DNA of 49,831 nt from a virus, in the IMG/VR virus record IMGVR_UViG_3300046780_001027, positions 1 through 49,831 of that record; one strand, written 5' to 3'. A model generated the notes under the pieces. It worked only from the letters and a program-made list of their open reading frames with translations, ran no database searches and was not told the DNA's origin. Position numbers and translations under genes: made by a program. Below, piece by piece: positions 1,776-14,363 of this stretch; position 1 is the first letter of the stretch, and every line of letters begins with the position of its first letter.

Positions 1776-2128
1776 GCCCGAGCCCGGACGTCCTGCAGCG
1801 ACTCCGGGACCGTCTCAACGCCGGGCTGCTGCCGGCGGCCGGGGGCGCGCTCCACCGCGGGCCGATGATCGCCCCGGACGGCCGACAGGTCAGCGAGGCC
1901 GAGGCGCTGGTGCTGCGGGCCTACCGGCTCGACTGCGAGCTCGAGATCCTGATCGAGCTCGGCCGGGGGCCCGACAACGTGTTGGACCTGGACCGGCCGA
2001 TCTCGCCCTGGGCACCCGTCGTGGTGTTGTCGCTGGCCGTCGGGCTGTTGGTCGTCCACGTCGTCTCACTGGCCTTCGAGTCGCTCTCGCTGCTGGTGGT
2101 CCTGGCGCTGATCTGGGCGAGGACCTGA
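1772..2128 (+). CDS. Small membrane protein, 118 aa
   Basis: The GTG at 1772 overlaps the upstream stop. The N-terminal 70 residues are soluble and charged. Two hydrophobic segments make up residues about 77-95 and 98-115 in a tight hairpin. That topology is compatible with a two-pass holin, but the hydrophilic N-terminal domain is longer than usual. It directly precedes the endolysin gene. Confidence 0.65.
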   Translation: MSPSPDVLQRLRDRLNAGLLPAAGGALHRGPMIAPDGRQVSEAEALVLRAYRLDCELEILIELGRGPDNVLDLDRPISPWAPVVVLSLAVGLLVVHVVSLAFESLSLLVVLALIWART

Positions 2129-2131
2129 GGG

Positions 2132-2764
2132 ATGTGCATGTCTCGCTGGTGGCAACGCCGTGTCGGAGCCGCCGATCCGCTGGTCGGGGCGCCCGTGCTC
2201 GTGTCGGAGACCCCGACCCCCACACCCGCGCCGGTGCCGGTGATCCCACCCCCCGTGGCGCCGGCACCGGCGTTGGTCCCGACGCCCGCCGGCGTGTGGT
2301 GGTGCGCGCAGTTCCCGGGGAGCAACCGGCTGGAGGACCTCGCCGAGCCGTTCCGCGAGGACGTTGAGCGGTTCGTGGCCGACCTCCGGGCGCGTGGCTG
2401 CACGGTCGAGATCACCGCGACGCGCCGCCCCGAGCAGCGCGCCTGGCTCATGCGCCAGTGCTGGGACATCGTCCACGGGCTCGTGCGGCTCGACGAGGTC
2501 CCGGTGCGGCCGGACATCCCGGTCCAGCCCTGGACGCTCGTGGGGGCGCTCGACATGCGCGCCGAGTACGGGCTCGTCTACCAGCCCGCGCTCGACTCGC
2601 TCCACATCCGCGGGCTCGCGCTCGATATGCACGTCCACGACTGGATGGGTTCCGACGCCGACCTCTGGGCGCTGGGGGCGTCGTTCGACGTCCTCAAGCT
2701 CATTACCGATCCGACCCACCAGCGCACCAGCGACGCCGTTCACTGGTCGTCCACGGGGCACTGA
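2132..2764 (+). CDS. Endolysin, M15/VanY-type peptidase
   Basis: This 210-aa protein has a Pro-rich N-terminal region (about residues 25-50) and a C-terminal zinc peptidase domain. The M15 signature is visible as SLHIRGLALDMHV (about 154-166, the S-x-H-x-x-G-x-A-x-D pattern) and a second metal-ligand motif DAVHWS near the end. Such enzymes cut peptide cross-links of peptidoglycan and serve as phage endolysins. The N-terminus lacks a clear signal peptide, so export would depend on holin-type neighbours. The family call rests on these motifs. Confidence 0.75.
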   Translation: MCMSRWWQRRVGAADPLVGAPVLVSETPTPTPAPVPVIPPPVAPAPALVPTPAGVWWCAQFPGSNRLEDLAEPFREDVERFVADLRARGCTVEITATRRPEQRAWLMRQCWDIVHGLVRLDEVPVRPDIPVQPWTLVGALDMRAEYGLVYQPALDSLHIRGLALDMHVHDWMGSDADLWALGASFDVLKLITDPTHQRTSDAVHWSSTGH

Positions 2765-2766
2765 CG

Positions 2767-3069
2767 ATGATCGAAGGCACCGAGCCCGACCCGGGGCCCA
2801 CCTACTCCTCGGAGGTGACGCTCTCGGACGAGGGGCCGGCCCCCGACGATGCGGCGGAGGGCGTACTGCTCCACCGCCGCGTCCCGAGCCGGGCCGGGCT
2901 GCCGCTGACCGAGGCGGTGGGTCGGCTCGTCGAGCGGCTGGGCAAGGCCGAGGTGAGGCTCCACCGGCTGGAGGTCGCCGGCGGGGTCGTGGCCGGCGTA
3001 CTGCTCGGGGTCGTGGGGCTGGCGCTCGCGGAGGCGGTGCTGCTCGTCGTACTGTGGAGGGGGCTGTGA
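2767..3069 (+). CDS. Small coiled-coil membrane protein, 100 aa
   Basis: The ATG at 2767 follows the endolysin stop by two bases. An acidic N-terminus (about 1-35) is followed by a coiled-coil-like stretch with Leu heptads (about 42-70) and a C-terminal transmembrane segment (about 73-97). Placement immediately after the endolysin fits a holin or spanin role. No family is recognised. Confidence 0.65.
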   Translation: MIEGTEPDPGPTYSSEVTLSDEGPAPDDAAEGVLLHRRVPSRAGLPLTEAVGRLVERLGKAEVRLHRLEVAGGVVAGVLLGVVGLALAEAVLLVVLWRGL

Positions 3070-10537: not shown

Positions 10538-11307
10538 GGCAACCTCCACGCGACCAGCGGCTGGTCGGCTCGGACGTACAGGGGGTGGCGCGGCTGCCCG
10601 CTCTTCGTGACCCCGAGGCAGACCGGGCGACGCTCGCGCAGGAGCCCGGCCACCCGGCGGACGCGCGGGAGCACCCGGTCTCCGTGGCTGCCCCAGCCGA
10701 CCACGATCAGTTCGGCCTTCGCGATCTCGGCGCGCAGGTGGTCATCGTTGTTGGGCCCGACGACGTCGACGAACGTCTGGGTCAGCGCCGCGGGATCCGT
10801 CGCCCGGAACGCGAACAGGTTGCAGACCGTGACGGTCCCGCAGCCCTCGCGATCCGAGAAGCTGAGCACACGTCGGATCGTGGGGTCGTCGACCGTGGCG
10901 TCCGCGGTGCTGGGGTTGAGCATGATCCAGAGCGCCTCGGGGCCGGCGTAGTGCTGGGGCAGCGTGCGGGTGAGCGTGTAGCGGTAGGTGCCGCAGGGGG
11001 AGAGGGTGGCGCCCGTGAGCGGCTCCCACGAATCGGGCACGGGCTGGAGTTCGTCGAGCGTCCGAACCAGGTAGGCCAGCCCACGCGGGCGGATCTCCGC
11101 TCCACGCTCGACGAGGTAGTCGCGGAGCACGCGGAGCGACTCCGGCCCCTGCTGCTCGATCGGCAGGTGACGGGCCGCCAGCCACTGCTCGCGGCCCCAG
11201 GGAATCAGATCGGCAGCCACGGCGTGAACCTGGGAGGCCGCCCACGCGTCCGTGCGGAACACGGCGGACGCGAGGTCCATCGGGTGGGGGCCGCTCGGCG
11301 GGGTCAT
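10534..11307 (-). CDS. DUF1643-family protein with N-terminal extension
   Basis: A 257-aa protein. Residues about 100-257 match DUF1643: SPCGTYRYTLTRTL, WIMLNPSTADATVDDPTIRR, NLFAFRATDP, then GWGSHG and LGVTKSGQPRHPLYV. The first 95 residues form an extra helical domain not part of that family. DUF1643 proteins occur in phages and bacteria and have no established function. In operon with thyX. Confidence 0.75.
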   Translation of the reverse strand: MTPPSGPHPMDLASAVFRTDAWAASQVHAVAADLIPWGREQWLAARHLPIEQQGPESLRVLRDYLVERGAEIRPRGLAYLVRTLDELQPVPDSWEPLTGATLSPCGTYRYTLTRTLPQHYAGPEALWIMLNPSTADATVDDPTIRRVLSFSDREGCGTVTVCNLFAFRATDPAALTQTFVDVVGPNNDDHLRAEIAKAELIVVGWGSHGDRVLPRVRRVAGLLRERRPVCLGVTKSGQPRHPLYVRADQPLVAWRLP

Positions 11308-11594
11308 GGCGTCTCCTTCCGGATCTGCTCGGGCGACGTCCCGGCCACATCCGCGAGCAGGCCCGGGGCCTCCGTCGCCAGGTGGGCGGTCAGCCGCGCG
11401 AAGCCCCGCTTCTCGGTCTCGCCCGAGAACCCGCGGTAGCTCGTGCGCGCCGGGTAGACGCGCGAGGGTGGCTCGCCGGCCAGCCCCTCGAACACGAGGC
11501 ACCAGCCGAACAGGTGCAGCGTTCGGTTGACCCACCAGAGGAGTCCGGCGTCGCGGAACTCCTGCCAGGACGCTTCGCGGATGGGGCCGCTCAT
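11304..11594 (-). CDS. 96-aa hypothetical phage protein
   Basis: It contains LLWWVNRTLHLFGWCLVFE and a region ending RTSYRGFSGETEKRGFARLT. From memory this resembles small conserved phage hypotheticals; no function is known. It overlaps thyX upstream and the DUF1643 gene downstream by four bases. Confidence 0.65.
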   Translation of the reverse strand: MSGPIREASWQEFRDAGLLWWVNRTLHLFGWCLVFEGLAGEPPSRVYPARTSYRGFSGETEKRGFARLTAHLATEAPGLLADVAGTSPEQIRKETP

Positions 11595-12388
11595 GGCGTG
11601 CCTCCCCGGAAGACGGCCTCGTTCGGGAGGAGCTTCCGCGCCTGCACCCAGCCGCGGAAGTTGCCGGTGAAGCCGCTGTCCCCGGTCGCTATGGCGGCAT
11701 GCTCGAACGGCGACATGTGCCCGGACGCCTGCAGCCGGGTAGCCAGCGCCCGATCCGCGGCGGGGTCCCGCACGCCCCCGTGGGTGTTGTACGACACCCG
11801 CGCACACCGGCCCGCCGAGACCATCCAGTCGTCGCCCGGATCTCCGAACGGCAGATGCCACTCGGCGAAGTCGATCTCTCGGGGCGTCGATGCGTCCCGC
11901 GCGCTCCGCATCATCCGGGCGAGCCGCTGGAACTCCGGCTGCGCGTCGGGGTGGCAGCGGAGCGCGAAGAAGTTGTCCCACTCCGTCGCGGTGATGACGC
12001 CCGAGACGAACGAGAACGGCTCGAGGACGCGGTTGGCGAGTTGCTTGTGAACGCCGAGCAGCGCCAGGGTCTCGGCAGACCGGCAGGCGTCCCGGCAGGC
12101 GTCCATCCACGCATCCCGCGCCTGCTCGTCGCGCAGGCCGTCCAGGTCCGCGCCCGCCTGCATGCCCTTCCGGGCCGAGCCGAACGCCTCCGGGATGAAC
12201 GGGTGCTCGCGCACCGCCTCGATCCGCTTCGCCACTGGGACCGCGCGGGAGGACTCGAAGTTGCGCGAGAGCATCCGGTGCGTGTTGATCTCCGCGAGGA
12301 TGAACCGCGGGAAGCTGACGAGGTAAGTTACGAGTCGAACTCCAAGAGGAGAGATGGAGTCCGCCAAGATCCTGCATTCATACGCCAT
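11591..12388 (-). CDS. thyX: Flavin-dependent thymidylate synthase (ThyX)
   Basis: A 265-aa protein with the ThyX signature THRMLSRNFESSRAVP (36-51, the RHR-x7-S motif in a phage-type variant), the WDNFFALRCHPDAQPE segment and the C-terminal SPFEHAA. It makes dTMP from dUMP using FADH2 and methylene-tetrahydrofolate. Codons 1-21 (12326-12388) use many AT-ending codons unlike the rest, and encode a near-copy of the truncated native start at 13013-13093. An HNH endonuclease gene lies directly upstream, overlapping by 11 bases. The start ATG has GGAGGGCC upstream. Confidence 0.88.
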   Translation of the reverse strand: MAYECRILADSISPLGVRLVTYLVSFPRFILAEINTHRMLSRNFESSRAVPVAKRIEAVREHPFIPEAFGSARKGMQAGADLDGLRDEQARDAWMDACRDACRSAETLALLGVHKQLANRVLEPFSFVSGVITATEWDNFFALRCHPDAQPEFQRLARMMRSARDASTPREIDFAEWHLPFGDPGDDWMVSAGRCARVSYNTHGGVRDPAADRALATRLQASGHMSPFEHAAIATGDSGFTGNFRGWVQARKLLPNEAVFRGGTP

Positions 12389-13013
12389 GACGGCCCTCCG
12401 TGAGCGCCCGAACAACGCCCCACTTCTTGAGTCTGGCTGACAGCGATTGGCTGGTGATTCCGAGTTCGCGAGCCCACGCTGCCTGACTCAGCCTTCGCCC
12501 ATCGAACTCGATGAACTTCGTCGACCGACGGTTCTCAGCCTGCTCAGTGGCGGTCGCCCACCGACAGTTGCCCGGTTCGTATCCGCGGTCATTGTCGATT
12601 CGGTCGATCGACATCCCGGGCCCCGGCCGAGGTCCCATGTCGGCCAAGAACGCTTCGAACGAGGTCGCCCATGCCTCGCACACCGTGATCCCGCGCGCGC
12701 CATAGTTGGCGTAGCTCTCGCGGACGGGGTTGAGACACCGCGCCTTCATGGACATCCATGCATGATGCTCGGACGAGCCGGTACACCCGTGAGTCTTGCC
12801 CTTGGCGTCACCCGACGTCCTGCGACATCCACAGCTCATGAGTTGACCCGGCCTCCATTTGCGCAGGTCGCTGGCGGCCACGACACAGACGTGGCCGCAG
12901 GCGCACCGGCACTCCCATCTGGCCCCTCCATTGGAGGCGCGATCGGGAGAGAGCGCAGAGACGGTCAGGTCTCCGAACCTCTGGCCGGTCAGGTCGACGA
13001 TGCTCGCGGGCAT
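12378..13013 (-). CDS. HNH-type homing endonuclease inserted at the 5' end of thyX
   Basis: A 211-aa protein. The N-terminal zinc-ribbon-like region has CRCACGHVC and CGC (35-63). A central HNH-like motif SIDRIDNDRGYEPGNCRWA (135-153) is followed by a C-terminal HTH (LSQAAWARELGITSQSLSAR), the usual plan of phage HNH homing enzymes. Its composition is visibly less GC-rich than the flanks. The ATG at 13013 overlaps the stop of the thyX stub and uses GGAGGCCGTTG. It separates a truncated native thyX start from a recoded full-length thyX. Confidence 0.85.
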   Translation of the reverse strand: MPASIVDLTGQRFGDLTVSALSPDRASNGGARWECRCACGHVCVVAASDLRKWRPGQLMSCGCRRTSGDAKGKTHGCTGSSEHHAWMSMKARCLNPVRESYANYGARGITVCEAWATSFEAFLADMGPRPGPGMSIDRIDNDRGYEPGNCRWATATEQAENRRSTKFIEFDGRRLSQAAWARELGITSQSLSARLKKWGVVRALTEGRHGV

Positions 13014-13093
13014 CAACGGCCTCCCGTCACGAGCCGCACGCCGAGCGGGCTGACCGAGTCGGCGAGGATGCGAGCCTCGTAGCCGGGGCTCAC
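13013..13093 (-). pseudogene. thyX (fragment): Truncated native thyX 5' end
   Basis: The frame opens at a GTG (13093) overlapping the DUF3310 stop, as expected for the ancestral operon. It reads VSPGYEARILADSVSPLGVR then LVTGGR and stops. Residues 5-23 match 17 of 19 positions of the downstream ThyX N-terminus. The ORF stops just after the conserved stretch, where the endonuclease gene begins (TGATG). It is too short to be enzymatic; it might still serve translational coupling. Confidence 0.8.
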
Positions 13094-13350
13094 CGCGCAC
13101 CCCGGTACGACCGCGGATCGGGGCCCTCACCGCGCAGGAACGCCGCGAACGCCCGATACCAGCGCGCCTTCTCGCGGTCGTTCTCCGCCGGCCCCTTGTG
13201 CCCGGCCCGGAGTTCGTACTTCCGGGCGTTCCCGATGCAGAACGCGAGGCAACCCGCGTCGCCCAGCTCCTCGCGGATGATGTCGATCGCCTCGCGCCCC
13301 GTCGCCGTGTACCGGCTCGGGGCCGCGTCGAAGCCCGTGTCGTCGTTCAC
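13090..13350 (-). CDS. DUF3310-family protein, 86 aa
   Basis: The conserved pattern REAIDIIREELGDAGCLAFC, IGNARKYELRAGHKG and EKARWYRAFAAFL is typical of DUF3310 proteins of phages, sometimes compared with T7 gp1.7-type nucleotide kinases. The GTG at 13350 has GGAGGCGAA upstream. Being directly upstream of thyX, it fits a nucleotide-metabolism role. Confidence 0.75.
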   Translation of the reverse strand: MNDDTGFDAAPSRYTATGREAIDIIREELGDAGCLAFCIGNARKYELRAGHKGPAENDREKARWYRAFAAFLRGEGPDPRSYRGAR

Positions 13351-14363
13351 TTCGCCTCCTTCGTGGATCGCTGGACGATCCGGTCGATCACGCTCCCCAA
13401 CGCCCCCAGTCGCTGCCACCGGTCGTCGTCCCGGCGGACGTGCAGCGGCTCGGCCCGGTCGAGCAGCCGATCGACGGCGGCCACGACCCGGCGCAGCTCG
13501 GCGAATTCGCCCAGCGCGGAGGACGGGGGAGTCACGTCCGCCTCCTCGCCGCCCGAGACGGGCTCCGGCGACGACGCAGGATCGCCGCCGGAGGGCTCGC
13601 CCGGAACACCCGGGCGGACCGCCGGAGCGCCGGAGGGAGAACACCCCTCCGGGCTCGGGCTCGGTTGTGCAGGCTCGGCCGCGTGCTCGCCGGGCGGATC
13701 CCCGACCAGGAGCGGGTCACCGTGCCGGGTCGTAACTCCGGACCGCTCGGGGTCGTGGGCCTGCTCGTTCGCCACCGGGCCCGCGAGGGCCGGCTCCCCC
13801 TGGGCCTGGAAGGGTCCGAGGACGGCTTCGACCTCGGACCGGAGCCGGGCCACGTCGTAGCCCTTCGTCTCTCCGCGCTCGGCGTTCGACACCGAGGACG
13901 CGGCCCGCCCGATCTGCTTCGCGAGCGCGCCCTGGGAGAGACCGAGGGTGCCTCGGCGCGCACGGGCCCACGCGCCCCACTCCGGCCCCGAAGGCGGCAT
14001 CGGGGCGGTCGGATCGTTCTCGTGGTGGCCCGACGGCAGGACGTCCGCCGACGTGGCCGCGCGCCGGTACACGACCCCCTCGTGCACCGTCACGAGGCCG
14101 AGATCCACGAGCTCGCGGACCACGGTCGGCGTCGCAGCTCGCCACCCAATCCCGTCCTCGCGCACGCACGCCTCGGTCAGATCGGCGAGTGAGAGCCCGT
14201 GGCGGCCGTGCGGCAGGCAGAGCAGCACGAGCTGTCGCTGTCGCTCTCGCTCGGCCTCCCGCTCGGCGCGGAGACGGGTCCGGCGGGCCTTCCACGCTTC
14301 GGGGCCCGGAGCGGGCCCCGACTCGCGGGATTCGGCGTAGTGGTCGGCATCGGCGAGGGACAT
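13347..14363 (-). CDS. HTH regulator-like protein, 338 aa
   Basis: Three parts are visible: an Arg/Glu-rich N-terminal helix and a winged-helix-like unit (about 45-105, LCLPHGRHGLSLADLTEACV), an XRE-type HTH (about 130-185, LGLSQGALAKQIGRAASSVS), and a long Pro/Ser/Gly-rich linker leading to a C-terminal helical region. It may be a DNA-binding replication or regulatory protein. The ATG at 14363 is preferred over a GTG at 14378 because AGGAG precedes it. Confidence 0.65.
   Translation of the reverse strand: MSLADADHYAESRESGPAPGPEAWKARRTRLRAEREAERERQRQLVLLCLPHGRHGLSLADLTEACVREDGIGWRAATPTVVRELVDLGLVTVHEGVVYRRAATSADVLPSGHHENDPTAPMPPSGPEWGAWARARRGTLGLSQGALAKQIGRAASSVSNAERGETKGYDVARLRSEVEAVLGPFQAQGEPALAGPVANEQAHDPERSGVTTRHGDPLLVGDPPGEHAAEPAQPSPSPEGCSPSGAPAVRPGVPGEPSGGDPASSPEPVSGGEEADVTPPSSALGEFAELRRVVAAVDRLLDRAEPLHVRRDDDRWQRLGALGSVIDRIVQRSTKEAK

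Follow-up and report, generated by a model that had tools for sequence, protein, structure and literature searches.

Organization of the thyX locus

The window, that is the whole stretch of DNA analysed here, corresponds to a virus record with a length of 49,831 bases. Direct reading of its minus strand reveals, in this order, a DUF3310 gene, a truncated thyX start (hereafter the stub), a gene for an HNH endonuclease and a complete thyX gene. This agrees with the initial annotation, according to which the native thyX start survives upstream in a GTGA overlap with the DUF3310 gene and is followed by the HNH gene and a complete thyX. The DUF3310 gene (13090..13350, minus strand; Pfam PF11753, E=6e-13) is the native upstream neighbour; its stop codon overlaps the GTG start codon of the stub, and the identical junction is found in the uninterrupted relative L003. 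The stub (13013..13093, minus strand) starts with GTG at position 13093, ends at position 13013 and comprises 26 codons and a stop codon. Codons 1-23 (13093-13025; MSPGYEARILADSVSPLGVRLVT) are homologous to thyX and match the start of L003 thyX, and they are followed by the residues GGR and the stop codon TGA; the GC content of the stub is 0.74. The HNH gene (12378..13013, minus strand) is intact and encodes a protein of 211 amino acids, whose ATG overlaps the stop codon of the stub (TGATG), thereby coupling the HNH start to the stop of the stub.

The complete thyX gene starts with an ATG at position 12388, within the last codons of the HNH gene, and ends at position 11591; its product begins with MAYECRILADSISPLGVRLVT, followed by YLV. 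It is composed of a carried replacement of the thyX 5' end (12326..12388, minus strand), which consists of 21 low-GC codons and is synonymously different from the stub, and of the GC-rich native thyX body (11591..12325, minus strand; Pfam Thy1 PF02511, E=4.5e-17), which shares 77% amino acid identity with L003. The carried start is preceded by GGAGGGCC, which lies within the end of the HNH gene. The complete gene product matches the Pfam Thy1 profile with 62.9 bits (cut-off 24.8) and phrog_85 with E=1e-66; its score for the NCBIfam thyX equivalog is 68.6 and thus below the cut-off of 87.9. The start regions at both ends of the HNH gene (window positions 13000-13030 and 12375-12405) are near-identical, with ACGGGAGGCCGTTGATG preceding the HNH start and ACGGAGGGCCGTCATGG preceding the thyX restart.

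HNH genes are frequently located in introns, and the locus could in principle contain an intron, an intein or another splicing element, or could result from a coding or assembly artefact. We regard the chance of this as practically negligible, as the complete thyX requires no splicing, the downstream copy uses different codons for 14 of the 17 residues that it shares with the stub, which an assembly error cannot produce, and the pattern recurs in unrelated contigs and in genomes of cultured strains. An intron was rejected on the basis of an Rfam search, group I introns included, which gave no match at E<=1 in the region 11300-13800.

Two thyX starts with separate histories

Stub and carried copy are identical at 17 of 19 aligned residues, and 14 of these 17 residues are encoded by different codons; both counts given in the initial annotation were reproduced. 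The extent that had been assigned to the segment holds for the carried copy, which indeed spans 21 codons; however, the homologous part of the stub had to be corrected to 23 codons (MSPGYE in the stub compared to MAYE in the carried copy). The similarity score of the two segments is 85, and the maximum among 2000-3000 mismatched pairs is 37-43, which excludes chance as the source of their likeness. Fourteen of the codon differences are synonymous and two are nonsynonymous (P<0.001), and a random placement of the same number of base changes would be expected to cause approximately 12.2 amino acid changes instead of the two observed. This pattern indicates that both copies have been shaped by purifying selection. 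A stub freed from its function could not diverge in this way, so that the two ends must have been functional in separate lineages while they diverged, and only later came to lie side by side. Furthermore, the codon divergence at identical residues (14/17) exceeds that of every 19-codon window of the thyX body compared to L003 (maximum 0.69, mean 0.41). Both copies contain the unusual residues LVT, in place of which L003 has LTS and most other ThyX proteins have LTT. Thus, the carried end comes either from a close donor or, as an old copy, from the lineage of the window phage.

The carried segment also stands out by its base composition. Its low-GC codons start with ATG GCG TAT GAA TGC AGG, and the first 69 nucleotides of the complete thyX have a GC content of 0.51, whereas the remainder of the gene reaches 0.71, the HNH gene 0.65 and the window as a whole 0.72; the claim that GC-rich composition resumes past the AT-rich start was therefore correct. 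At third codon positions, GC is 0.47 in the carried segment and 0.95 in the stub, and only 0.4% of all 69-nucleotide segments of the window have a GC content as low as that of the carried segment.

An HNH gene flanked by two copies of one gene end might have been generated by a duplication after insertion, either as a target-site duplication or by local copying of the thyX start, followed by drift in place. However, although the stub is not under selection as a ThyX start any more, synonymous changes account for 14 of the 16 altered codons, and the carried copy has 51% GC within a genome of 72% GC. Moreover, no exact direct repeat of at least 16 nucleotides flanks the HNH gene in any of 322 loci encoding relatives of the HNH protein (0/322), which argues that fresh local duplications are not being missed. 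Local duplication, which we consider very improbable, was rejected on account of the synonymous pattern, the composition and the lack of exact repeats.

Uninterrupted relatives

A search for an uninterrupted thyX in relatives, as proposed in the initial annotation, identified L003, the closest thyX relative with 76% amino acid identity, in which DUF3310 is joined to thyX via GTGA without an HNH gene. Because L003 joins the two genes directly, the stub is the native thyX start and its junction with DUF3310 is native. Over 19 codons, nucleotide identity to L003 is 70% for the stub and 63% for the carried copy, and 8 of 19 codons of the stub, but only 5 of 19 codons of the carried copy, are identical to those of L003 (counted by hand). 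The expectation that the uninterrupted allele would match the codons of the stub was thus borne out in direction, but the margin is only moderate, since L003 itself is 24% diverged in protein. When the complete thyX is compared to L003, codon identity amounts to 0.29 over the carried part and to 0.70 over codons 24-50. The jump at codon 23/24 places the end of the replaced piece at the insertion point, and both the displaced and the carried segment end there.

One could also turn the argument around and regard the low-GC start as native and the stub together with DUF3310 as the newcomer, as it is the low-GC start that is used by the complete thyX. This is extremely improbable: L003 joins DUF3310 to thyX by GTGA, and the GC content of the stub is normal for the phage, whereas that of the carried segment is among the lowest 0.4% of the window.

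A donor phage with the carried thyX end was not found in an N-terminal scan of viral contigs, which returned only L003 and distant thyX genes, and a scan for DUF3310 yielded only L003, L504 and a weak third match, L505. In L504, a related phage, the slot after DUF3310, which also has the GTGA overlap, holds a different ThyX (L504:2758-3501) with an RHR motif in place of the type found in the window, suggesting that unrelated ThyX versions alternate at one operon position.

The expectation that the uninterrupted allele resembles the stub and not the carried copy was met more sharply at sister loci, where relatives of the HNH gene interrupt other genes. Uninterrupted relatives are available in five cases, in all of which the stub or remnant is the native copy. 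In Synechococcus phage S-CBS4, the uninterrupted exo gene starts with MKFPRYEPNRLQINKKRYYV; the stubs of L356 and L360 (ARYEPNRLQINKKRY) match this 5' end in protein and in most codons, whereas their carried starts (KHYSPNRISLNGKRNYV) do not match S-CBS4 exo. In L468, too, it is the stub and not the carried copy that matches the uninterrupted relative, Pseudomonas phage KLEP17-4, with which L468 has four consecutive codons of the stub and the end of the upstream gene in common. In L271, the ancestral tail ending in LQ and a stop codon, as well as the intergenic sequence of Acidovorax phage AP1, are kept by the remnant and not by the carried end, and the remnant of L111 keeps the TGATG overlap with the next gene that is present in Synechococcus phage Yong-M2-251. 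Hence, the displaced copy lies at the native junction in all sister cases with empty-site relatives (L356/L360, L468, L271 and L111).

The HNH endonuclease

The HNH protein matches the HNH endonuclease family phrog_374 (E=2.2e-61) and retains all 18 invariant as well as the nearly invariant positions of a 40-member family alignment. It consists of N-terminal Cys motifs, a central HNH region and a C-terminal helical region that is DNA-binding-like. An AlphaFold2 model of the protein has a mean pLDDT of 91.5. The best structural match of the model is the HNH endonuclease PacI (3ldy; Z 6.7, i.e. below 8, rmsd 2.4 over 78 residues, model residues 73-165), so that a resemblance of the central part to this enzyme is only suggestive. 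A Foldseek search with the model gave nothing significant, and a solved relative was not found by sequence. A feature by which homing endonucleases are recognised, namely a target site that is uninterrupted in relatives, is seen in L003 for the window and in S-CBS4 and KLEP17-4 for the sister loci; cutting and homing by this HNH family are putative. Residues 133-168, which comprise the conserved DRID..NCRWAT segment, weakly match the carboxysome protein CsoS2B (E=0.0019), probably because of a shared short motif.

Recurrence across the HNH family

The first sign that the arrangement is not confined to thyX came from L111, in which a DnaB helicase ends with SEMPPAFEGFF and a stop codon just before the HNH gene, while the HNH protein itself ends with ADMPPAFEGFM and a stop codon. 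For 322 loci with relatives of the HNH protein, taken from viral contigs and bacterial genomes, it was asked whether the end of a neighbouring gene is repeated across the HNH gene. A first same-locus null with unrestricted scoring showed no excess, as it was swamped by low-complexity and tandem repeats; instead, a gene-structured flank test was used, with an entropy filter, 1654 control ORFs from the same loci and a score threshold of 48. Gene-end duplications flank 19 of 322 HNH loci but only 9 of 1654 control ORFs (p=1e-9); four of the 19 passing loci (L115, L279, L347 and L429) are doubtful on inspection. From a wider scan, 18 cases were curated by eye (L381, the window, L448, L218, L361, L271 (=L228), L346, L306, L375, L351 (=L212), L220, L330 (=L111), L468, L487, L356, L379, L484 and L211). 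Their host genes include thyX and genes for a DnaB helicase, a ParB-like protein, a PDDEXK exonuclease, an AAA_24/Sak4-like protein, NinB, a P22-type portal protein, DUF7484 and others. Duplicated ends are found at the 5' and the 3' ends of genes, with the HNH gene in both orientations; the C-terminal cases are L111, L228 and L361. L212 is the cleanest case: MAVALSPTLIPQ is present on both sides of an HNH gene that is antisense to the host gene, all 12 residues are identical and 9 of 11 non-Met codons differ. Pooled divergence between stubs and carried ends is 0.32, 0.20 and 0.66 at the first, second and third codon position, respectively, although part of this synonymous excess is due to ascertainment, as the curated cases were found by protein similarity. 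For its expression, the nuclease often makes use of the start or stop of the host gene. In L356, L360, L468, L484, L487 and L448, the HNH N-terminus is joined in frame to the stub, and in L111, L271 and L220 the C-terminus of the HNH protein consists of the remnant; in the window, this role is filled by the TGATG coupling. In phage D3, whose orf78 is an HNH gene beside orf79, no stub is visible, and a GIY-YIG seed from which to examine other HEG families was not found among the collected loci.

The composition of the carried ends follows a similar trend in the family. In 15 of 17 informative cases, the intact gene bears the AT-richer of the two copies (sign test, p=0.0023), and in 15 of 16 this copy also has the lower GC3 (p=0.0005). 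The HNH gene has a higher AT content than the flanking sequence in 18 of 18 curated cases. However, carried ends are nearer to the HNH gene in GC than the stubs are in only 9 of 18 cases, which is no consistent trend, and the exact composition of the donor is thus not given by GC. Over the whole set, 289 of 322 loci have an HNH gene that exceeds the flanking sequence in AT content, with a mean difference of -4.9% GC, whatever the GC content of the host.

Alternatively, a chance recombination event with another phage might once have joined an HNH gene and an adjacent thyX start, in which case the carried end would be a passenger of co-conversion and its codon differences would have no role. Co-conversion of flanks is standard for phage homing endonucleases (PMC2988022), and the carried segment does resemble a diverged donor. 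However, such a one-off hybrid is unlikely, given that the arrangement recurs in about 18 loci, in many host genes and with one HNH family, and that the carried segment does not continue into the gene body but ends at the insertion point.

A probable homing element with a spare gene end

The structure of the locus, the native stub, the precise boundaries, the separate histories of the two ends, their composition and the recurrence in the family can all be read from the compared sequences. Together, they make it probable that a free-standing homing element, consisting of the HNH gene and a replacement thyX 5' end, inserted after codon 23 of the native thyX. The proposal in the initial annotation that the element brings its own synonymous 5' segment, thereby keeping the enzyme intact, is supported by L003, by the sister loci and by the approximately 18 recurrences. 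Before it met the stub, the carried end would have evolved in another lineage of lower GC content, where it was a functional gene end; this would explain why it is near-identical in protein but different in codons. During homing, the HNH enzyme would cut an uninterrupted thyX at the insertion site, and repair from an element-bearing phage would copy the HNH gene and the carried end into the break, with the stub and the thyX body serving as homology arms. What remains of the old start would be a short stub that links its translation to that of the HNH gene. Translation from the carried start, which lies within the last codons of the HNH gene, would restore full-length ThyX without splicing.

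It is tempting to speculate that the codon differences are themselves an adaptation. They should protect the element against cleavage by its own enzyme, in keeping with the putative loss of the cleavage site proposed in the initial annotation, and against deletion by recombination between the repeats, and they should block a type of repair in which the carried end, but not the nuclease gene, is copied. Under this reading, a native-like carried end would be self-cut, would disappear through recombination between the repeats or would serve as a repair template from which the nuclease gene is not copied, and selection would therefore keep carried ends synonymously unlike their targets, turning the elements into natural home-and-rescue drives. 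We consider this a real but tentative possibility, as passive import from a diverged, lower-GC phage predicts an identical pattern and would look the same as selected recoding. If the adaptive reading is true, HNH elements would have a means of spreading in essential phage genes that requires neither introns nor inteins.

Relation to known systems

The closest parallels come from fungal mitochondria, in which mobile ORFs create hybrid genes, for instance atp6, atp9, cox2 and nad3 of Glomus sp. and atp6 of Allomyces macrogynus; the Glomus atp6 copies share 63.5% nucleotide and 91% amino acid identity (PMC3630166). In both systems, an endonuclease ORF in a coding gene brings a foreign replacement end and the native end is left as a remnant, and in the window, too, two copies of a gene end flank the endonuclease, with a foreign copy joined to the gene body and the other copy being native. 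The fungal ORFs with replacement C-termini are elements of the same kind. However, these ORFs encode LAGLIDADG or GIY-YIG enzymes, are mitochondrial and have been described for C-terminal ends (PMC3630166), whereas the window case is N-terminal and lies in a virus record. The parallel to fungal HEG insertions that had been drawn initially holds for the carried replacement end. In addition, the phage and prophage elements differ from the fungal ORFs in that they encode HNH enzymes, affect 5' and 3' ends, occur in both orientations and often have the stub or remnant fused in frame to the nuclease.

In T4-like phages, free-standing HNH genes (mob genes) are found within important phage genes, as in the split genes nrdA of Aeh1 with mobE and gene 60 of T4 with mobA, and likewise spread by break repair and co-conversion (PMC2988022). 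These split genes work in pieces, whereas in the window a single polypeptide is made, since the element provides an entire replacement end. Other phage HEGs, located at boundaries of genetic exchange, similarly lie beside or inside essential phage genes (PMC10448857); a term search of the main text of this article retrieved introns as well as interrupted genes, but no gene end that is carried and synonymously diverged, and carried gene ends were likewise not found by a term search in PMC2988022. Among the open-licence papers searched, no phage precedent for HEGs with duplicated or hybrid gene ends was found. A further analogy is provided by the synthetic home-and-rescue drive HomeR, in which a nuclease element also targets an essential gene and carries a recoded stretch of its target; the recoded 22 or 27 amino acids rescue function and prevent gene conversion with the native allele (PMC7968924). 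The designers recoded these residues because repair might copy the rescue end without the nuclease. HomeR is an engineered Cas9 system in flies with rescue of the 3' end, whereas the phage elements are natural and affect 5' and 3' ends, and the role of recoding in them is putative.

HEGs inside essential genes are usually explained by self-splicing, i.e. introns or inteins, or by split genes that still work. Bringing a spare gene end appears to be a third and apparently common route in phages, which would account for short orphan gene fragments and for patches of atypical codons at gene ends beside HNH genes. In this way, essential genes can also become hybrids of different phage lineages, and the elements may represent a natural counterpart of recoded-rescue gene drives that is testable in simple phage crosses.

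Insertion sites of related HNH genes

Some further loci illustrate how the HNH genes are placed. In L212, L346, L306, L203 and L218, the HNH gene runs antisense to the gene with the replaced end. The HNH genes of L271/L228 and L273 are 65% identical and share one site behind a P22-type portal gene. No remnant is visible in L273, which is perhaps an older insertion or has lost its remnant. Relatives of the small gene phrog_1588 have the HNH gene at their 3' end in L136 and L211, whereas in L158/L435 it is located at the 5' end, which suggests two HNH lineages, each with its own end of the gene as target.
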